IMG/VR virus record: IMGVR_UViG_3300032323_000644
Span: 1-33,556 of that record
Direction: 5' to 3' (one strand)
From: a virus
DNA length: 33,556 nucleotides
Positions within the stretch are counted from its first letter, which is position 1, and every line of letters begins with the position of its first letter. The notes beneath the pieces are model-generated. The model ran no database searches and was not told where the DNA came from. It saw only the letters and a program-made list of their open reading frames with translations. Position numbers and translations under genes: made by a program. This document shows, piece by piece, positions 6,525 through 27,243 of the stretch.

Positions 6525-6563
6525 TTTCTCCTAATAAATAAACTACTACTTTAATAGGAGAAA
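6525..6563 (+). promoter_or_regulatory. 9-bp perfect inverted repeat sequestering a ribosome binding site
   Basis: TTTCTCCTA (6525-6533) is exactly complementary to TAGGAGAAA (6555-6563), with a 21-base loop. The right arm holds the ribosome binding site TAGGAG of the gene starting at 6566. A transcript reading through from the fibre genes could fold and hide this site. A late transcript from the octamer at 6533-6540 would start near 6546 and lack the left arm, leaving the site free. T4 genes e, soc and 49 are known to use this arrangement. Folding and use are inferred. Confidence 0.6.
6533..6540 (+). promoter_or_regulatory. T4-type late promoter octamer AATAAATA
   Basis: Same octamer as at 2800. 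It begins on the last base of the left hairpin arm and lies 26 bases before the ATG at 6566. A start about 6 bases downstream of the octamer gives a ~20-base leader. It is the only promoter-like site seen in front of the 10-kb overlapping gene cassette that follows. Confidence 0.55.
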
Positions 6564-6565
6564 TC

Positions 6566-6916
6566 ATGAACGAGATGCTTAAGAAAGCTCTTGAGTTTTC
6601 TAACTTCAAACAATCCTTATCTATCCAAAGAAAAGTCCTGAAAGAAAAGTTAAACGCTAGATTAACTTTTGGTTATGAGGGCGGACTGTTTAAAATCGAT
6701 CAGACACTGATCTGCTTTATTAATTTCTTAATAAATGAAGGCAGAACAGTGAATGTTGTTATCGTTGATATGAATGAAAACCCAATTCTAATCAAAGATT
6801 TGAATATTTTTAAATCAGAAATTCTTGACAGATACTTTACTGCCGTAAACGAATCTTATATCGAATATGGAAAAATTAAAAAAAGCAGAACTGTTGACGC
6901 ATTGGTAGATCTATGA
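6566..6916 (+). CDS. Conserved hypothetical protein (116 aa), first gene of the glycosyltransferase/radical SAM cassette
   Basis: Mixed-charge soluble protein with no signal peptide or membrane segment. The N-terminus (MNEMLKKALEFSNFKQSLSIQRKVLKEKL) is probably helical, and the protein ends in a basic stretch (KIKKSRTVDALVDL). It resembles small proteins I recall from other T4-like marine phages, but no function is known to me. The start follows TAGGAGAAATC, which is buried in the 9-bp hairpin. The stop codon overlaps the start of the next gene (ATGA), so translation is probably coupled. Confidence 0.8.
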   Translation: MNEMLKKALEFSNFKQSLSIQRKVLKEKLNARLTFGYEGGLFKIDQTLICFINFLINEGRTVNVVIVDMNENPILIKDLNIFKSEILDRYFTAVNESYIEYGKIKKSRTVDALVDL

Positions 6917-10128: not shown

Positions 10129-12109
10129 TATTTTTTATGTATCTCAAAAGACAGGCGACGAGTTAGATTGGAAAAAAATAAAATCTAAATATTCGCATGC
10201 ACAACGTTTGCAGAATGTAGAAACTTTTGAAGATATAAGATCTAAATCATTTACAAAAATGTTTTGGGTTATCTGGGACGATATCGAAATAAACGAATCG
10301 TTCGATATAGCATCTTACCGAGCTACCAAATGGGACGATATGTATGTCCATGTTTTTAAAAACAAAGATCATTATGATGGTATTTGTTTGTTCCCAAAGG
10401 CATTAGACATATCTCAGAGAGAGTTTCGTCATAGATTTTTTACAGAAAAAAAAGAAATAGACATAGTAGCAAGTGTTCCAAAAAAATACAACATATATTC
10501 GCCAGAGTCTTATGACGACTATCTAAAAATCCAAGACGACCTGTTTTGGATAGTATGGCCAAATCTACACATAACAAACACAGAAATATTCGATACCTAC
10601 TTTGATTTTCATAATACCTATGATAGATCAGAAAATCATATTTTTAAAAATCTCTGTTACAAAAAAGAATCATTTATCAATGGTATAATACTTGCTAGCA
10701 AGAAGAAGCCTATCTCGAAAAGAGAGTTTGATATACGGTATATCATTGATAAAAAAGAACATGATATTATTATTTCTAAATGTAGATACCCTATAGTAAA
10801 AATACAGACCTACGATCAATATTTAGAAGCTGTTAAAACAGTCAATGATGATATGTTCTGGATTGTGTGGCCTAATATTGAGGTTGTAGATCAAACAATT
10901 TTTGATATCTATTTTGATCCTAGAGATGGTAAGTATGACCATGATAGATCAGAAAATCATATTTTTAAAAATCTCTGTTACGAAAAAGAATCTTTCGTTA
11001 ATGGAGTTATCCTGTGCAGTAAGAAAAAACCCATTTCAAAACGAGAGTTTGATATACGATATATCATCGATAAAAAAGAACATGATATTTTAGTCAGTAA
11101 GTCTCAATATCCAATAGTTGAAATAAACTCCTATGACGACTATCTATCAGCTTTAGAAAACACAACTGACGAAATGTTTTGGGCCGTTTATCCAGAAATA
11201 GAAGTTACAGATACTTCTGTGTACAACATATATTTTGATACTCGAGACGGCAAGTATGACTATGACAGGAATATCAATCATGTATTCTTGCATAAGTTCA
11301 AAGACAAAGAATATACTTACAATGGACTGATGCTAATGAGCAAGCAGGCCACGGTAGGAAAAAGAGAAATAGACTTTAGATATCTTATCAATAAAAAAGA
11401 ACAAGAAACAATAGCGTCTGAACACAGATTATATGATATAGTATTCATCAGTTATAATGAACCTAATGCAGATGAGAATTGGTCTAAACTTAAAGAAAAA
11501 TATCCTCTTGCTAAACGAGTACACGGAGTCAAAGGAATACATAAAGCTCACATAAAAGCTGCTGAAATGTGTTCTACTGAAATGATATGGGTAGTAGACG
11601 GCGATGCTGAAATAGTTGACGGATTTATTTTTGACCATGTTGTAACAAGATATGAAAGAAATGTAGTACATGTTTGGAGGAGCCAGAATCCTATCAACGG
11701 CTTAGTCTATGGCTATGGGGGAGTAAAGCTGTTACCTCGTCATCTAACATTAGCCATGGATGTAAACAGTACAGATATGACTACATCAATCAGTGATCAA
11801 TTTAAGGCCGTGGAAAAAGTTTCTAATATTACCGTTTTTAATACTGATCCTTTCAATACCTGGAAGTCAGCATTTAGAGAGTGCGCTAAACTTTCTGCTA
11901 AATTAATCAGTAGACAAAATGAAGATGAAACTAACGAACGATTAGCAGTATGGTGCAGTCAGGGTAAAGATAAGCAATACGGAGAATACGCGATTGCAGG
12001 GGCGATTGCCGGAAGAGATTTTGGTTTATCGTCTAAAGAAGATAAAACTCAACTAGCTAAAATCAATGACTTTGAATGGTTAAAAAAATATTTCGATGGA
12101 CTTCAATAG
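10121..12109 (+). CDS. 662-aa multi-repeat protein: four degenerate glycosyltransferase-like repeats plus one intact DXD domain
   Basis: The C-terminal domain (about 435-662) matches the preceding gene: YDIVFISYNEPNADENWSKL, KRVHGVKGIHKAH and WVVDGDAEIVDG with DGD at residues 493-495. The N-terminal 430 residues are four related units with cores WDDIEI (W52), WPNLHI (W146), WPNIEV (W250) and YPEIEV (Y357), each followed by a segment ending NGxxLxSKKxxxxKREFDxRYxIDKKE. These cores align with the DXD strand but have lost it. The N-terminus DIFYVSQKTGDELDWKKIKSKY also mirrors the start of the active domain. The repeats probably serve as a scaffold or in glycan binding rather than catalysis (inference). 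Confidence 0.75.
   Translation: MYDIFYVSQKTGDELDWKKIKSKYSHAQRLQNVETFEDIRSKSFTKMFWVIWDDIEINESFDIASYRATKWDDMYVHVFKNKDHYDGICLFPKALDISQREFRHRFFTEKKEIDIVASVPKKYNIYSPESYDDYLKIQDDLFWIVWPNLHITNTEIFDTYFDFHNTYDRSENHIFKNLCYKKESFINGIILASKKKPISKREFDIRYIIDKKEHDIIISKCRYPIVKIQTYDQYLEAVKTVNDDMFWIVWPNIEVVDQTIFDIYFDPRDGKYDHDRSENHIFKNLCYEKESFVNGVILCSKKKPISKREFDIRYIIDKKEHDILVSKSQYPIVEINSYDDYLSALENTTDEMFWAVYPEIEVTDTSVYNIYFDTRDGKYDYDRNINHVFLHKFKDKEYTYNGLMLMSKQATVGKREIDFRYLINKKEQETIASEHRLYDIVFISYNEPNADENWSKLKEKYPLAKRVHGVKGIHKAHIKAAEMCSTEMIWVVDGDAEIVDGFIFDHVVTRYERNVVHVWRSQNPINGLVYGYGGVKLLPRHLTLAMDVNSTDMTTSISDQFKAVEKVSNITVFNTDPFNTWKSAFRECAKLSAKLISRQNEDETNERLAVWCSQGKDKQYGEYAIAGAIAGRDFGLSSKEDKTQLAKINDFEWLKKYFDGLQ
10620..10660 (+). 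repeat. 41-base exact direct repeat, copy 1
   Basis: Identical to 10941-10981, 321 bases (107 codons) apart, and falls in equivalent positions of repeat units 2 and 3 of the 662-residue protein (DRSENHIFKNLCY). The perfect identity suggests recent duplication or gene conversion. Recombination between the copies would delete one unit in frame. Confidence 0.95.
10941..10981 (+). repeat. 41-base exact direct repeat, copy 2
   Basis: Second copy of the repeat at 10620-10660. The flanking bases differ at both ends, so the identity stops abruptly while protein similarity continues. Confidence 0.95.
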
Positions 12110-13517
12110 AAACATAAAAGGTAACGAGCTTAGAAAGATTGATGGAAAATATCAATCTCGATATTTGTTGGATGCCGAATTCGTAAAACAAGAACTCGAT
12201 AAGGTCGGAAAAGGATTTTGTCTAGCCAAATGGTTTAATGTTAGCATCCACATACCTACAGGTAGAACTCACAGTTGTTATCATCCAAGAAGCCATCACA
12301 TTCCTTTAGACGAAGTTAAGATTGATGTTAGTGCATTGCACAATACCAACTATAAAAAGCATCAACGAAAACTAATGATTGAAGATTTAAAACCGCAGGA
12401 ATGTAATTTTTGTTGGCAGATAGAAGATAGTGGAACACAACTAAGTGATCGTGCCTATAGAAGTAAAGATGTATGGGAACCTGGTATCATAGACGAAGCT
12501 ATAGAACTAGGGCATACCGGTAATGCTAAACCTAGATATGTCGAAGTAAACTTTAATCAAGCCTGTAACTTTAAATGTAGTTATTGTAGTCCACATCTAA
12601 GTACAGCATGGATGGACGAAATAAAAAAACAAGGTCCTTATCTATTGTCGGAGAGAATCCATAACGATATAACCTGGATTGAAAATGAGATTCCTATAGA
12701 TAACAGTTCGGATAATCCTTATCTTAAAGCCTTCTGGGAGTGGATGCCTGAAATATATCCCACTTTGCAAACATTTCGTATGACCGGCGGCGAACCGCTA
12801 ATGGATAAAAATACGTTTCGTATGTTCGACTATGTGAAAAATAATCCCAAGCCAGATCTCCATTTAGCCATTACCAGTAACTGCTGTCCCCCAGGAAATC
12901 AATGGCAGAAATTTATGGAAGGGTTGAATGACATAACTTCTGCCGATGCAATAGATCATTTTATGCTGTTCTGTAGTTTAGACAGTTGGGGCCCCCAGGC
13001 GGAATACATTCGAAACGGTATGGATTTTGAAGTATTAAAAAATAATGTAAAAGATTTTTTAGCTAACAGTCAACGACACAGTTTAACATTTATCATAACT
13101 TTTAACGCTCTAAGCTACGGAAAGATTTTAGAATATATACAGAATATCTTAAAGCTCAGAAGATCTTTTAGTAAAAAGCGTCAACTGATATGGTTTGATA
13201 TACCTCAACTGCACGATCCTGACTTTTTAAATCCTAAGCTGATTCCTGAAATGGTAGTGGAACTTGAAAAGACTATTAAGTTCATGAAGCAGAATAAAGA
13301 AGGGCGATGGAATCAGTTTATGGGTTTTAGTGATTTTGAAGTTAGCAAAGTTCAAAGATTAATAGACTGGATTAACGCAGACACAGGATTTGACAAGCAT
13401 AAGGCTATGAAAAACTTTTATTTGTTTTTCAGCCAGCACGATGAAAAAAGAGGAACTGATTTTTTAAAAACGTTTCCTGAGCTAAAAGATTTTTGGGAAA
13501 AATGCAAAAATGGATGA
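12096..13517 (+). CDS. Radical SAM protein with N-terminal twitch-type cysteines (473 aa)
   Basis: The radical SAM cluster motif CNFKCSYC is at residues 157-164 (C-x3-C-x2-C), and the SAM-binding TGGEP is at 231-234. Upstream lie four cysteines (C42, C61, C103, C106) in the contexts GFCLAKW, HSCYHP and ECNFCWQIED. These probably bind an auxiliary Fe-S cluster, as in the twitch-type radical SAM family whose auxiliary domain precedes the core. Such enzymes modify peptides or small molecules. It overlaps both neighbours (14 and 8 bases) and is followed by a paralogue. Substrate unknown; the neighbouring glycosyltransferases suggest a glycan or a surface protein. Confidence 0.8.
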   Translation: MDFNRNIKGNELRKIDGKYQSRYLLDAEFVKQELDKVGKGFCLAKWFNVSIHIPTGRTHSCYHPRSHHIPLDEVKIDVSALHNTNYKKHQRKLMIEDLKPQECNFCWQIEDSGTQLSDRAYRSKDVWEPGIIDEAIELGHTGNAKPRYVEVNFNQACNFKCSYCSPHLSTAWMDEIKKQGPYLLSERIHNDITWIENEIPIDNSSDNPYLKAFWEWMPEIYPTLQTFRMTGGEPLMDKNTFRMFDYVKNNPKPDLHLAITSNCCPPGNQWQKFMEGLNDITSADAIDHFMLFCSLDSWGPQAEYIRNGMDFEVLKNNVKDFLANSQRHSLTFIITFNALSYGKILEYIQNILKLRRSFSKKRQLIWFDIPQLHDPDFLNPKLIPEMVVELEKTIKFMKQNKEGRWNQFMGFSDFEVSKVQRLIDWINADTGFDKHKAMKNFYLFFSQHDEKRGTDFLKTFPELKDFWEKCKNG

Positions 13518-14865
13518 TAGAGTAGAATATATTAAAAATGTAAGAGACAGACTAAACAAGGTAGGTCCTGGTTTTTGTGCAATGAAATGGTTGCATCAAA
13601 CTTTGTACTTACATACCGGAGATAATCACAGTTGCTATCATCCTCGTCCGCACCACATTCCTTTAGACGAAATAAAAATAGATGCAAGTGCTCTACATAA
13701 CACTAAGTGGAAAAAACAGCAACGTAAAACTATGTTAGAAGGCGGTCGTCCGGAGGAATGTTACTATTGCTGGAATATTGAAGACCTGCCAGGAGAGCAT
13801 ATCAGTGATAGAATGATACACAGTAGCAGTGACTTTTCTGAACCGTTGATAGAAAAGCTAGCAGAGCTACCATGGGATGCTCCTATCAATCCTAGGTATT
13901 TAGAAGTTAGCTTTGGCAACGGCTGTAACTATCGTTGCGGATATTGCTGTCCACAGGCCAGTACCATGTGGATGGAAGAAATTAAAAAACATGGAAACTA
14001 TGATTTAACCTATAATCAATATGGTATTGAATTTTTAAAATCTGGAACTTATTACGGTCCTAAAGATGAAAACCCTTATATCGAAGCTTTCTGGCGTTGG
14101 TGGCCAAGTCTCCGTAAAGACCTACACACATTAAGAATCACAGGCGGTGAGCCCTTAATGAATCCTGGTGCTATGCAGTTCTTTGACCTATTAGAAGAAG
14201 AACCTGCTCCTCATCTAGAGATTACGTTAAACAGTAACCTTGGAGTGACTTTTGAAAGAGTTGACAGATTAATTTCCAGGGTAACTAGTTTAGTAAATCA
14301 AAAGAAGATACGCAAATTTAGTTTCTTTACCAGCATTGATAGTTGGGGAGAACAGGCTGAATACATGCGCACTGGTCTAAAGTGTGACCATTGGGAAAGA
14401 AATATGAAAGAGGTCATCAAAGCAGGCGCAACTGTAAATCTCATGTGTACCTACAACGTTCTTTGTGTAACTAACTTTCAAAGTTTATTGCATAAAGTTA
14501 TCGAATGGCGCAAAGAATATGGAATGGAAGCAGTAGCATTTGACACACCGTACCTGAAAGAACCCCCTCACTGGATGATCAATATTCTTCCGGAAGAATT
14601 TTTAAAATATCAGGAAGATACACTGACGTTTATCCAGGATAATCAACAATGGTTTACAGGTGTTGAGTATGAAAAGTTCAAACGTGTCACTGATTACATG
14701 AGAGAAAACCCAGTTAGTAAAGAAAAGATACATCAAGGTCGTAGAGATTTTTATAGTTTCTTTACTGAAAATGATCGTAGATTAGGAACTAATCTTTTAT
14801 TGACATTTCCAGAATATGAAGAGTTTTACAAAAGTTGTAAGGAAATTTATCTAAATGATAAATGA
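13510..14865 (+). CDS. Radical SAM protein with N-terminal twitch-type cysteines (451 aa), paralogue of preceding gene
   Basis: It has the same layout as the gene before it: C23, C42, C84 and C87 (GFCAMKW, HSCYHPRPHHIPLDE, ECYYCWNIED), then the radical SAM motif CNYRCGYC at residues 139-146 and TGGEP at 211-215. The segment HHIPLDE(I/V)KID(A/V)SALHNT is nearly identical in both proteins. Two such enzymes in a row suggest either two successive steps or a heterodimer. It overlaps the previous gene by 8 bases and the next by 11. Reaction and substrate unknown. Confidence 0.8.
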   Translation: MDDRVEYIKNVRDRLNKVGPGFCAMKWLHQTLYLHTGDNHSCYHPRPHHIPLDEIKIDASALHNTKWKKQQRKTMLEGGRPEECYYCWNIEDLPGEHISDRMIHSSSDFSEPLIEKLAELPWDAPINPRYLEVSFGNGCNYRCGYCCPQASTMWMEEIKKHGNYDLTYNQYGIEFLKSGTYYGPKDENPYIEAFWRWWPSLRKDLHTLRITGGEPLMNPGAMQFFDLLEEEPAPHLEITLNSNLGVTFERVDRLISRVTSLVNQKKIRKFSFFTSIDSWGEQAEYMRTGLKCDHWERNMKEVIKAGATVNLMCTYNVLCVTNFQSLLHKVIEWRKEYGMEAVAFDTPYLKEPPHWMINILPEEFLKYQEDTLTFIQDNQQWFTGVEYEKFKRVTDYMRENPVSKEKIHQGRRDFYSFFTENDRRLGTNLLLTFPEYEEFYKSCKEIYLNDK

Positions 14866-18355: not shown

Positions 18356-18637
18356 TTAAAGTTTTTCACCTTCGGTAAGTTTATAAACACCGAAGTCATT
18401 GCACTTGAACAATTTATTTAATTTTTTCGCAAGATTGTGAGCATGTCCAGGATTTGAAAAACTTACTTTTTTATATTTTGGTCCCGGATAGCTGGCGACA
18501 AGACTGCCGCTTTTCAGATTAAAAGGTTTGCCCTTATAGAAGACAGCCCAGATGGCTTCGCTCTCGAGAATCTGCTCAATCTTGTAGTTTTCTTTATTGG
18601 CATATTCTAAGATGATTTTCGGTTTTGGTCTGCTCAT
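18356..18637 (-). CDS. Conserved hypothetical protein (93 aa) with hairpin-covered start codon
   Basis: Basic small protein: MSRPKPKIILEYANKENYKI, then AIWAVFYKGKPFNLKSG and SNPGHAHNLAKKLNKLFKC. It appears to be a compact alpha/beta fold with a Lys-rich helix; function unknown. Expression is the notable feature. Its ribosome binding site TTAGGAAAA lies in the loop, and its AT(G) in the arm, of a perfect 9-bp inverted repeat with a late-promoter octamer just upstream. It seems to lead a late sub-operon running to 16507. Confidence 0.75.
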   Translation of the reverse strand: MSRPKPKIILEYANKENYKIEQILESEAIWAVFYKGKPFNLKSGSLVASYPGPKYKKVSFSNPGHAHNLAKKLNKLFKCNDFGVYKLTEGEKL

Positions 18638-18668
18638 ATACGTGTTTTTCCTAATTAACCACGTATAT
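18636..18668 (-). promoter_or_regulatory. 9-bp perfect inverted repeat covering a start codon
   Basis: ATATACGTG (5' arm in the transcript at 18668-18660) is exactly complementary to CACGTATAT (18644-18636), with a 15-base loop that contains the ribosome binding site AGGAAAA. The right arm includes the first two bases of the ATG at 18637. Read-through transcripts from upstream genes would fold and hide the start. A transcript begun from the octamer at 18675-18668 would start near 18662 and keep only the last three bases of the 5' arm. Function is inferred from the known T4 e/soc/49 type control. Confidence 0.6.
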
Positions 18669-18675
18669 ATTTATC
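18668..18675 (-). promoter_or_regulatory. T4-type late promoter octamer GATAAATA
   Basis: The - strand reads GATAAATA, one base from the consensus TATAAATA, in the 42-base gap between two genes and overlapping the first base of the hairpin arm. It is placed so that initiation would remove the inhibitory arm. Predicted leader about 25 bases. Confidence 0.5.
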
Positions 18676-18679
18676 ACCT

Positions 18680-18928
18680 TTAGAAGGTTCCTCCATCGAA
18701 CTTAACATCTATCTTAGTATTTGATTCACGTATTTCGGATAACATTTGATGTATTTCTTGTACTGTTTGACCTAGCTTGGAAGTCAAAATAGCCATTTCA
18801 GCAGTTATGTCTTTGGCTTCTTGGATAGTAAGTCTTATTTCTCTTTGTTGACTTCTTTCTGCAGAAACTACTCTTTGTATCAGCTTTTCAACAGCAGGTA
18901 GTTTAGATGGAATATTATTTTGAGACAT
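18680..18928 (-). CDS. Small coiled-coil protein (82 aa)
   Basis: The sequence from about residue 10 to 70 is a continuous helix with heptad-like spacing (VEKLIQRVVSAERSQQ, ITAEMAILTSKLGQTVQEIH), ending in DVKFDGGTF. No catalytic motif is present. Such short helical proteins in T4-like phages are often structural or assembly factors, but this one is unassigned. It overlaps the preceding gene by 14 bases, and the promoter/hairpin region follows immediately after its stop. Confidence 0.75.
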   Translation of the reverse strand: MSQNNIPSKLPAVEKLIQRVVSAERSQQREIRLTIQEAKDITAEMAILTSKLGQTVQEIHQMLSEIRESNTKIDVKFDGGTF

Positions 18929-20445: not shown

Positions 20446-20879
20446 GTATTATTTCTTTTCACTGTTTTTATGTCAATAACACCGGTATTCACTGGTTGAT
20501 TGATTCCTTCGTCCATTACTACATTAGCACAGAGTTCTCTGAACCAACGATCGACGATCTCCTCATCTTTGTCACCATCGAAACCGTACCCTTCTTGCTT
20601 TAATTGTACTATAAAATGCTCGTTCCAGTCAAGTTCAAAAAAACCATTTTTGATATTATCTTTGTTAACATGAGTATTCAAAACAGAAACCCATGGCTCC
20701 TTCTTTCGTGTAGCACGTTCTTTTGGAGTCAGTTTTGCCAATTCGGCCTGTTCTTCAACTTCCTTTAAGGCTTTCTCAACTTCTTCTTTTTTAGCCTGTG
20801 CTTCGGCTAATATCTTTCTAGTCTCTTCGATATTGGATTCTAGTTTATCTAATCCAAACAACTTTTTGATCAGTTTCAT
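20442..20879 (-). CDS. Conserved hypothetical protein with N-terminal coiled coil (145 aa)
   Basis: The first ~70 residues are a strongly charged helix (KLESNIEETRKILAEAQAKK and so on). The C-terminal part is a small domain with WVSVLNTHVNKDNIKNGFFE, LDWNEHFI and VDRWFRELCANVV. I take the ATG at 20879, which overlaps the queE stop codon (TAATG); the GTG at 20891 would add four residues. It lies between queE and the RNase H gene. Function unknown; conserved position near replication genes suggests a phage core protein. Confidence 0.75.
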   Translation of the reverse strand: MKLIKKLFGLDKLESNIEETRKILAEAQAKKEEVEKALKEVEEQAELAKLTPKERATRKKEPWVSVLNTHVNKDNIKNGFFELDWNEHFIVQLKQEGYGFDGDKDEEIVDRWFRELCANVVMDEGINQPVNTGVIDIKTVKRNNT

Positions 20880-21742
20880 TAAGTTCCCCACTCATTCTTA
20901 AATAATGGCACTTGCAGTCGATCACTGTAACGAAGACCATTCTTCATAGCGAACTCTGCAACACGGCGATTATTTAGTGTATAAACACTTTCAACTCCGC
21001 CCACGGGCATTAAGTAGCACGGACCTTCAAAACCTTCTGCGCGATAAATGTCTAAAGTTTCGATAGCTTCTTCAGCATCTTCTTCTGTAGCAATAACGAA
21101 CTTAAGATATGTGTAACCGATCTCTTGATATTCGCAAACAATATCTGGACGTATAGCTTCGTGCCTTTCTTCACCAGAACAACTTAGTTTAGCACTAACT
21201 GAAAACGTTAATGCATCATAGCTTCTTCGACCTCGTCGAGGATTCAATGTCCAATCTAGAAGATAATGTCTAAATTCTTTTGAGATGTTTTGAGTACCGT
21301 TAGTTTCAAATGTAATCTCTTTTAGATTCTGCATCTTGGGATGGTCTAACAGTTCGGGATAAGCACGTTGCCAACCGAGCAACGGTTCTCCTCCTGTAAT
21401 AACGAGATGTTCGCTTCTCCATTCATTGAACGGTAAAATCTCGCAGATTCTTTCTGCGATGGCGTCGCTAGTAAGCATTGGACTAAGATCCTTAAAACGA
21501 GGATCCCAGCTAGCGTAACTATCACAACCAGTAGATACCAATGGGAGTTCTTCATACTTCTTAAACTCTCCTACTTTTTCAGCGATAGCTTCAACCTCTG
21601 TGCTTAGTTCGCCTTTAGGCATACCAAAGCCAGCACATTTAAAGTTACAACCGAATGTACGTAAAAACACAGAAGGAACACCCATGTAGCGTCCTTCACC
21701 TTGAATGCTGTAAAACAGCTCTGCGATTTTAATTTTGCTCAT
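20879..21742 (-). CDS. queE: 7-carboxy-7-deazaguanine synthase QueE-like radical SAM enzyme (287 aa)
   Basis: QueE converts 6-carboxytetrahydropterin to 7-carboxy-7-deazaguanine. The start AELFYSIQGEGRYMGVPSVF is typical of the family, and GGEPLLGW, which binds SAM, is seen later. The three cluster cysteines are C32 and C36 (GCNFKC) and, after a 36-residue insertion, C73 in STGCDSYASWD, which matches the CDS..WD that normally follows two residues after the second Cys. The insertion enlarges the cluster loop. Other pathway genes (FolE, QueD-like, DpdA-like) lie on the same strand within 12 kb. Identity is firm; activity is inferred. Confidence 0.85.
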   Translation of the reverse strand: MSKIKIAELFYSIQGEGRYMGVPSVFLRTFGCNFKCAGFGMPKGELSTEVEAIAEKVGEFKKYEELPLVSTGCDSYASWDPRFKDLSPMLTSDAIAERICEILPFNEWRSEHLVITGGEPLLGWQRAYPELLDHPKMQNLKEITFETNGTQNISKEFRHYLLDWTLNPRRGRRSYDALTFSVSAKLSCSGEERHEAIRPDIVCEYQEIGYTYLKFVIATEEDAEEAIETLDIYRAEGFEGPCYLMPVGGVESVYTLNNRRVAEFAMKNGLRYSDRLQVPLFKNEWGT

Positions 21743-24447: not shown

Positions 24448-24624
24448 TTAGGCTCCGTAGTAAGTGTGTTGTTCAAGATTTTTTTCTTGTAGGATTTGAT
24501 CCACACGCCTAATAGCTTCTTCACGTTCTTGATCGGTGAGTTCGTAGCACTTGGGATTTCTTTTAGGATCACGCATCAGCGGATATGATTGATCTTTTGA
24601 AAGTTTAAATATTTTTTTAATCAT
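24448..24624 (-). CDS. Small hypothetical protein (58 aa)
   Basis: Start taken at the ATG at 24624 in an ATGA overlap with the phosphoribosyltransferase gene; an upstream ATG at 24636 would add four residues. Lysine-rich N-terminus (MIKKIFKLSKDQSYPLMRDP), then ELTDQEREEAIRRVDQILQE, a charged helix. No family recognised. Confidence 0.65.
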   Translation of the reverse strand: MIKKIFKLSKDQSYPLMRDPKRNPKCYELTDQEREEAIRRVDQILQEKNLEQHTYYGA

Positions 24625-25118
24625 TTTGTCCACCATTCTTCGTAAGGGAATTCAATCCACACATCATTTTCAGCTTTGTTAACTTCCATTCCCCAATAGT
24701 TCATACCTTTACTACATTGGCTAGAAAGATTATCTACAACAACAGCAAATCTTACATTACTACCCCAGATATTATCCCAACGTTCATCATAGGGATAACA
24801 TCCGCTAGGCCAATCTTGCATAATCCAGTTGAGTGTGTTGCCTTGATCATTGATATCGTCAACGATGAGAATATTTTTACCGTCGAAGGCATCCTCAGCC
24901 ATTCCTAGATCACTGACACACCCTTCATGATCTCGAAGACTGACCTGCAAAGGTTTCATTGGTATATTTAGATAGTGACTAATCATAACAGCAGGTAAGA
25001 GTCCGCCTCTGCTGATACCTACGATATAATCGGGTTTCCAGTTGTCATTTGAAATATCTCTACAGATAATAGCAACTAAACTTTGAAACTTTGAATTATC
25101 TATGATTAGCTTGTTCAT
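24621..25118 (-). CDS. Phosphoribosyltransferase (165 aa)
   Basis: The PRPP-binding loop is plain: KNILIVDDINDQGNTLN (residues 81-97), preceded by DYIVGISRGGLLPAVMISHY as the pyrophosphate-side loop. This is the type I PRTase fold of xanthine-guanine phosphoribosyltransferases. It would join a purine or similar base to PRPP during nucleotide salvage. It lacks regulatory domains and is of normal length. AAGGAGCG precedes the ATG. Linkage to the 7-deazaguanine genes is only by position; the base it uses cannot be read from the sequence. Confidence 0.8.
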   Translation of the reverse strand: MNKLIIDNSKFQSLVAIICRDISNDNWKPDYIVGISRGGLLPAVMISHYLNIPMKPLQVSLRDHEGCVSDLGMAEDAFDGKNILIVDDINDQGNTLNWIMQDWPSGCYPYDERWDNIWGSNVRFAVVVDNLSSQCSKGMNYWGMEVNKAENDVWIEFPYEEWWTK

Positions 25119-25560
25119 ATCGCTCCTTGAGGTATTGTTCGTGTTGTATCCATTTATTATTGACTAAAAATCCCCATTCACGCTTATGTGGACCTGGCAT
25201 AAACAATGTCCAGGCAGTTACACCGGGTTTAAGCTCAATGCGATGATAAGAGTTAGGACTACAAGTGCGAAAGTGACCAGGGCCACGCCATAGTCGAACT
25301 TCATTGATTTTTTCACCTACAGTATTAAAGATTGGTACCCACTCATAGTAGCCACCTTTTAAAATCAAAGTGGCATAGGGCCATGGATGATCGTGAACAT
25401 CGTCCGGATCACCTTTTAAAAACTTGTGTAAGAATACGTTGAATGGAAAACGTTCTCTTTCTTTTAAGAAGAGATAATACCGTTCTAGATACGGTTCGTT
25501 ATGTATACGATCAAAAATGATACGCTTACGGCCCAGTCGTTCAAGCAGTTTCAAGAACAT
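25096..25560 (-). CDS. Cupin-fold protein (154 aa)
   Basis: Cupin motif 1 is seen as DDVHDHPWPYATLILKGGYYEW with metal-type His residues (about 53-75) and a second motif later (GHFRTCSPNSYHRIEL, about 95-110), giving a jelly-roll fold with a likely His-bound metal. The rest is basic and aromatic. Function could be sugar or small-molecule modification or binding. It is flanked by overlapping PRTase and DNA glycosylase genes. Substrate unknown. Confidence 0.75.
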   Translation of the reverse strand: MFLKLLERLGRKRIIFDRIHNEPYLERYYLFLKERERFPFNVFLHKFLKGDPDDVHDHPWPYATLILKGGYYEWVPIFNTVGEKINEVRLWRGPGHFRTCSPNSYHRIELKPGVTAWTLFMPGPHKREWGFLVNNKWIQHEQYLKERYEQANHR

Positions 25561-26403: not shown

Positions 26404-27243
26404 TTATCTTGGAGCAAATTCTTGCTGTAGTTTGATGTTATCAAAGAATTCTTTCTTTGTGTTACCATCTTCTTTAAATGCACCTTTAAGCACAGTGGTC
26501 TGAGTTAATGAACTATGTGCCATGATACCACGATTCTCACAGCAACCATGAACCGCTTGAATGTATACACCTAGGTCTTTGGCCCCCGTGGCCTTTTCGA
26601 TCTCCCTAGCAATGTCATTAGCAAGTTCCTCCTGGAGAGTTCCTCGACGGGCGCACCACTGAGCGATGCGTGTGTACTTTGAGAGACCGATAAGTTTCTG
26701 AGCGGCAATAATGCCAATATAAGCAACGCCACTAACGGGTTGGTGATGATGACTACACATACTGCGAAGCTCGCTACGAACAACCAACATACCTTCGTAG
26801 CGGTCCTCCGAATCATTTGGAAATGCTGTTGCGTCTGGTGCTGGTTCATAACGTCCTGCCATTATTTCATTAAAGTACATCTTGGCAAGCCTACGTGCTG
26901 TGCCTTTGCTGTTAGGATCATTTTCACGATCAATCAGCAAACGATCAAGAACTAGTTCGAATGCTTCTGTTGCTTCATTGATTAGTCGTTCTTTATCGCC
27001 TTCGTGCAGGTAGTCGCTGATATTATCTCCTGCCCAGAAACGTTTATTATCACGTTTCATTTTAGTGCGGATAACATCTGCAAAGTATGCTTCTTGGTAC
27101 CCGCCATCTCCAGCCATAGCATCTAAGGCTGTTTCTTTTTTAATATAGACTGGTTTGCCTAAGGGTTCGTATTCGTCTTTTACGAAAGGCATATTAGCCT
27201 TCTCATTTAGAATAGGATCTGGTTTAAATTCTGGCTTTGTCAA
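26404..27243 (-). CDS. folE: GTP cyclohydrolase I FolE (279 aa)
   Basis: Converts GTP to dihydroneopterin triphosphate, the first step towards 7-deazaguanine and folate. The zinc ligands are visible: C163 and H166 (SMCSHHH) and C234 (AVHGC, matching C181 of the E. coli enzyme). LIGLSKYTRIAQWCARRGTLQEEL is the substrate region. The E. coli enzyme has 222 residues, so an N-terminal extension of ~60 residues is present (EYEPLGKPVYIKKETALDAM). The start is TTG at 27243 with CGGAGAAC upstream and an in-frame stop just before it; an ATG at 27192 with AGAAGG is an alternative. Confidence 0.9.
   Translation of the reverse strand: MTKPEFKPDPILNEKANMPFVKDEYEPLGKPVYIKKETALDAMAGDGGYQEAYFADVIRTKMKRDNKRFWAGDNISDYLHEGDKERLINEATEAFELVLDRLLIDRENDPNSKGTARRLAKMYFNEIMAGRYEPAPDATAFPNDSEDRYEGMLVVRSELRSMCSHHHQPVSGVAYIGIIAAQKLIGLSKYTRIAQWCARRGTLQEELANDIAREIEKATGAKDLGVYIQAVHGCCENRGIMAHSSLTQTTVLKGAFKEDGNTKKEFFDNIKLQQEFAPR

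Follow-up and report, generated by a model that had tools for sequence, protein, structure and literature searches.

The trick known from T4 lysozyme and I-TevI is usually presented as a few cases in T4-like phages. The T4 late promoter box lies at -13 to -6 (PMC2988020). For gene e, the late promoter is situated within the sequence of a hairpin which hides the start on long early transcripts, and the late RNA, having no 5' strand, is translated (PMC3014915). Genes soc and 49 are late genes located in early units, with an inhibitory helix in the leader (PMC3014915), and for I-TevI, I-TevII, segB and Aeh1 mobE the ribosome binding site is hidden on read-through RNA and freed on late transcripts (PMC2988022). 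No paper describing such a switch in a jumbo phage was found in the literature searched.

A leader of this kind was identified on the minus strand of the window, the whole stretch of 33,556 nt analysed here, for which no DNA similarity to known phages was found. The order on this strand is GATAAATA, TATACGTG, GTTAATTAGGAAAAA, CACGTAT, ATG and AGC. The box GATAAATA (18675-18668), which is of T4 type and would occupy -13 to -6, begins 38 nt 5' of the ATG (18637-18635). The hairpin is composed of a 5' arm ATATACGTG (18668-18660), a loop (18659-18645) containing the Shine-Dalgarno sequence AGGA (18652-18649), and a 3' arm CACGTATAT (18644-18636) containing the first two bases of the start codon, A and U, both paired in the stem. 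The arms pair perfectly over 9 bp, with U-G at 18669/18635 as a tenth pair, and box and 5' arm share position 18668, the last A of the former and the outermost base of the latter. The layout claimed in the original prediction, namely the perfect pairing, the ribosome binding site in the loop, the ATG partly in the stem and the box overlapping the outer base, was confirmed at these positions. The hairpin folds at -10.1 kcal/mol (z -4.9), and the fold of 101 nt of the leader additionally shows an outer helix. At gathering thresholds the Rfam covariance models matched nothing in the window, and around the leader they matched nothing up to an E-value of 5. The window is AT-rich, and perfect 9-bp inverted repeats with a loop of at most 20 nt are common in it: 11 entries were counted at 9 places, where Markov-1 controls averaged 4.2. 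The repeat alone is therefore weak evidence, and it is its position and conservation that make the case.

The focal leader is very probably a switch that times translation, of the same type as those of T4 e, soc, 49 and I-TevI. Computation shows how its elements are arranged, that pairing is conserved through compensating changes in the RNA, and that long and late RNA differ in energy; we infer the late +1, early read-through transcription and the repression. RNA reading through from the upstream minus-strand genes would contain both arms, and the hairpin would then hide the Shine-Dalgarno sequence and the AUG. In late infection, a gp55-like sigma factor would direct RNA polymerase to initiate at GATAAATA. 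From T4 late promoter geometry, and in agreement with the energetics, the late +1 is predicted at 18662 (box offset 13), within the 5' arm and downstream of its bulk, and the late mRNA would retain about 3 of the 9 arm bases. Such a truncated mRNA would be unable to fold the hairpin and would be translated, so that the product would be expected only late in infection. Of 21 records searched, 13 encode a gp55-like late sigma factor (phrog_234), among them PA5oct and every contig longer than 110 kb; the window, a 33.6-kb fragment, contains none. The search for gp33 gave no match in any record, which has no bearing on the presence of gp33.

The controlled gene (18356..18637, minus strand) encodes a protein of 93 aa (MSRPKP...YPGPKYKK...SFSNPGHAHNLAKKLN). 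At least 598 relatives were found in IMG/VR, and among named phages the gene turned up only in jumbo phages (PA5oct and its allies, Phosso, Atu_ph07 and SCTP-2). The protein had no sequence match in PHROG, Pfam or PDB. AlphaFold2 predicted a small, compact beta/alpha fold (pLDDT 92.8), and fold searches with this model returned nothing beyond phage proteins that are themselves uncharacterised and PDB entries that matched weakly (Z of 5 or less). Since neither sequence nor fold gave an informative match, no function is claimed.

A co-directional ORF of 82 aa (18680..18928, minus strand) lies directly upstream, with its stop 42 nt 5' of the ATG, and its transcripts are presumed to be the source of read-through RNA. 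No terminator was found between this ORF and the 93-aa gene. The same neighbourhood was seen in the relatives: in 140 of 144 leaders the 120 nt upstream contained the end of a co-directional ORF (median distance 43 nt), and an intrinsic terminator directly upstream was found in none of the 122 hairpin leaders. The leader of PA5oct is the only one with an intrinsic terminator just upstream, and it also has no strong hairpin; there (L082, 2880-3000) the late promoter is immediately preceded by the terminator CCCTGTATA/TATACAGGG with its T run, and only a weak hairpin covers the start. This single case is suggestive, in that a terminator may stand in for the hairpin. In the window, a ribosome translating the upstream gene would halt 11 nt before the 5' arm, and therefore the hairpin on read-through RNA could be partly opened.

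The leader is well conserved in its parts, with box, hairpin, Shine-Dalgarno sequence and ATG retained in nearly all cases, and poorly in its letters. Distinct leaders of the 93-aa gene numbered 145, and in 139 of them the box NATAAATA was present no more than 60 nt 5' of the ATG. Five of the six remaining leaders have NCTAAATA instead, a late-box variant reported for phage Aeh1 (PMC2988020), and the sixth, from SCTP-2, has GATAAATA slightly farther upstream. A good stem was observed in about 122 of the 145 leaders, usually starting at box offset 5-10 and ending at or near the ATG, while 17 of 144 (about one in eight) keep the promoter with a weak or absent stem. The arm sequences are highly variable, as in TATACGTG/CACGTATA and TATGCGTA/TACGCATA, and unrelated arms in the same layout occur in L054 (ATCATACT/AGTATGAT), L195 (AAGAGTAT/ATACTCTT), L083 (GCATAA/TTATGC) and L227. 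The box of L227 and L081 is directly preceded by the 5' arm; the logic is the same, because the late RNA would be without this arm. The 3' arm of L228 (around position 1501) consists of the start codon and the next codons (CTGCTCAT/ATGAGCAG, around CATAAATA). In L214 (about 1470-1503) a small CATTA-gtgagg-TAATG hairpin, whose loop contains the Shine-Dalgarno sequence, is situated 3' of the predicted +1, and so it would persist in the late RNA.

Pairing between the arms was kept although the arms themselves were rewritten. Stems scored 19.2 when each leader kept its own arms, 15.0 when arms were swapped and 10.6 when the 3' sides were shuffled. At box offset 11, where the 3' partner was placed by anchors and independently of the 5' arm, the pair was A-T in 55 leaders, G-C in 39, G-T in 5 and A-C in none (Fisher p 2e-22). 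On a tree of the 93-aa gene, which is approximate only, the gene being short, all 11 inferred 5' changes at this offset shared their branch with a compensating 3' change, with about 0.8 expected. Coincident changes of this kind could also arise if leaders were transferred whole, and control sites were therefore checked: at unpaired positions of the leader and at third positions of codons, changes coincided on only 0-3 of the same 11 branches. The pair at box offset 15 had weak tree support, with 2 coincidences. A MAFFT alignment of the leaders misplaces the 3' arm, and pair counts were therefore taken from the anchor-based tree test.

These results bear directly on the explanation that the late promoter alone is functional and the hairpin is a chance outcome of AT-rich promoter and start-codon sequence. 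The frequency of perfect 9-bp repeats in the window would suit it, as would the fact that most late promoters of the relatives have no hairpin, but it is contradicted by the covariation, that is, by the site-controlled tree test in which every one of the 11 branches showed compensation. Own arms also outpair swapped and shuffled ones, and the energy difference given below is absent from shuffled leaders, which leaves a chance hairpin extremely improbable.

Compensating changes by themselves are also compatible with a dyad in the DNA, and the inverted repeat could be an operator over the late promoter, bound by a dimeric repressor such as the gene's own product. The repeat does overlap the promoter, and autorepression by I-TevI at its late promoter offers a precedent for such an operator (PMC2988022). 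The non-Watson-Crick cells of the inner stem, however, comprised 20 G-U, 5 A-C and 29 others; this preference of G-U over A-C is not predicted by a DNA dyad and points to pairing in RNA. The arms, moreover, are wholly different between leaders of one protein family, some of them (L081, L227) lie upstream of the box, and the 3' arm follows the Shine-Dalgarno sequence and the ATG. A DNA operator is thus very unlikely, and the leader is better read as an RNA switch.

The predicted exposure of the start region is consistent with such a switch. The cost of opening the Shine-Dalgarno sequence and AUG was computed for read-through RNA, with a 5' end well upstream, and for late RNA, with a 5' end at box offset 13. 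In leaders of the 93-aa gene its median was 9.4 kcal/mol on read-through RNA and 2.9 kcal/mol on late RNA, and the median difference was 6.4 kcal/mol, compared with 0.6 kcal/mol for shuffled leaders. For the leader of the window the two values were 9.7 and 1.3 kcal/mol, and when the 5' end was moved stepwise to 18662 the cost decreased from about 8 to 1.3 kcal/mol. The drop falls at box offsets 8-13, up to the expected +1, so the loss of the hairpin is predicted to coincide with the start site of late RNA. Two near relatives depart from this: the focal leader of G004 gained no energy over the control by this measure, and that of G009 showed a difference of only 1.8 kcal/mol. The same calculation speaks against a hairpin acting in the late mRNA, where it would be a processing site or would stabilise the 5' end. 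It is general knowledge that 5' hairpins are able to stabilise mRNA, but with the predicted +1 inside the 5' arm the late mRNA would be without most of that arm, and the opening cost is gone by this position, which makes a role in the late mRNA very improbable. That a start-hiding hairpin is formed on long RNA and cannot be formed by the late transcript, as originally proposed, is instead supported by the leader comparisons, in which conservation, compensating changes, G-U preference and energetics point the same way.

When the same scan was applied to T4, e, 49, I-TevI, I-TevII, segB and 26 were among the top hits, and this recovery of T4 leaders validates it. T4 e has the same anatomy and logic as the focal leader, with a stronger hairpin (opening cost 15.6 kcal/mol, compared with 8-10 kcal/mol here), two late promoters, and a gene and arm sequence unrelated to those of the focal leader. 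As the Shine-Dalgarno sequence lies within a 15-nt loop, repression here may be milder than in T4 e. I-TevI, I-TevII, segB and Aeh1 mobE also share anatomy and logic, but the genes they control are homing endonucleases, and the focal leader differs from theirs in that its loop contains the Shine-Dalgarno sequence and its stem the AUG. For gene 49, which the scan also recovered, the opening costs differed by 11.1 kcal/mol; the inhibitory leader of soc is similar and is missing from the listed scan hits, and for both of them the genes and arms differ from the focal ones. By every sequence-based test, the focal case behaves like the T4-type switches. The device is already known from T4, and what is described here is a new and widely conserved case with a different controlled gene, the breadth of its conservation being a difference from the e, soc, 49 and I-TevI cases.

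The original prediction had also mentioned a second copy on the opposite strand, and had regarded the layout as a general device of the phage. The second copy is most likely the unit with its box at 6533 (plus strand), found by the opening-cost scan at 6528..6560, in which CTCCTA, the box AATAAATA and TAGGAG over the Shine-Dalgarno sequence precede a gene of 116 aa (6566..6916, plus strand). This unit is real, with an opening-cost difference of 11.5 kcal/mol which none of 20 shuffles reached, and it recurs in the relatives.

Its generality was examined with a threshold of 4 kcal/mol on leaders having both promoter and start in the window and nine related contigs. Switch-positive leaders numbered 22 of 79, compared with about 7.3 expected from shuffled leaders, so the pattern occurs above chance. 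Counts of ATAAATA in reversed sequence carry no information, as this string is identical backwards. The excess is limited to three gene families, in which 18 of 22 leaders were positive: 4 of 7 for the 93-aa gene, 8 of 8 for the 116-aa gene, and 6 of 7 for a third family of leaders, GATAAATATAGTATGA...TCATACTATG, before genes beginning with MRDL, MLLKEMF or MKTSDI. The other 57 late promoters, many of them before apparently structural genes, gave 4 positives with 5.6 expected. The claim of a general device thus stands as far as recurrence at three gene families and fails for late promoters at large: the device is recurrent yet selective, without use for late genes in general. Such selectivity would follow if a switch were needed solely by late genes that lie in early-transcribed units. 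In a scan of PA5oct, 12 of 41 leaders passed, compared with 2.2 expected.

The arms before the 116-aa gene differ in most phages and are mostly unrelated among relatives, which suggests repeated re-invention; in G005 they are AATAATGTGC/GCACATTATT together with ACAATC/GATTGT. Leaders of the third family, GATAAATATAGTATGA..CTTACGGAATCATACTATG, were seen at L234:19565 (minus), L238:5476 (plus), L241:6425 (minus), L247:13237 (minus), L254:19133 (minus) and L263:7999 (plus). The leader of L247 has AGTATC/GATACT, a compensated version, and the genes behind these leaders look different from one another (MRDL..., MLLKEMF..., MKTSDI...).

Several other features were observed in the window. A QueE-like radical SAM protein (20879-21742), a phosphoribosyl transferase (24621-25118) and a GTP cyclohydrolase (26404-27243) are encoded in one region of the minus strand, which suggests a deazaguanine-type pathway. 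A candidate tRNA-Lys (ttt) was called by ARAGORN at 25427-25504 (plus strand), antisense to a cysteine-dioxygenase-like ORF (25096-25560, minus strand). Two neighbouring radical SAM ORFs (12096-14865, plus strand) were found within plus-strand genes.

The leader may in addition be a regulated riboregulatory site, bound for example by the 93-aa protein, and this is considered unlikely. If true, the 93-aa protein would be a late regulator in a large group of T4-superfamily and jumbo phages, controlling its own switch. As for the switch itself, one gene retains it in more than 100 mostly uncultivated phage sequences, with the arms rewritten and the pairing kept, and such conservation is strong evolutionary evidence for it. 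It offers a route from sequence only to late genes embedded in early operons, and could be used to flag genes whose products should be absent early in infection.
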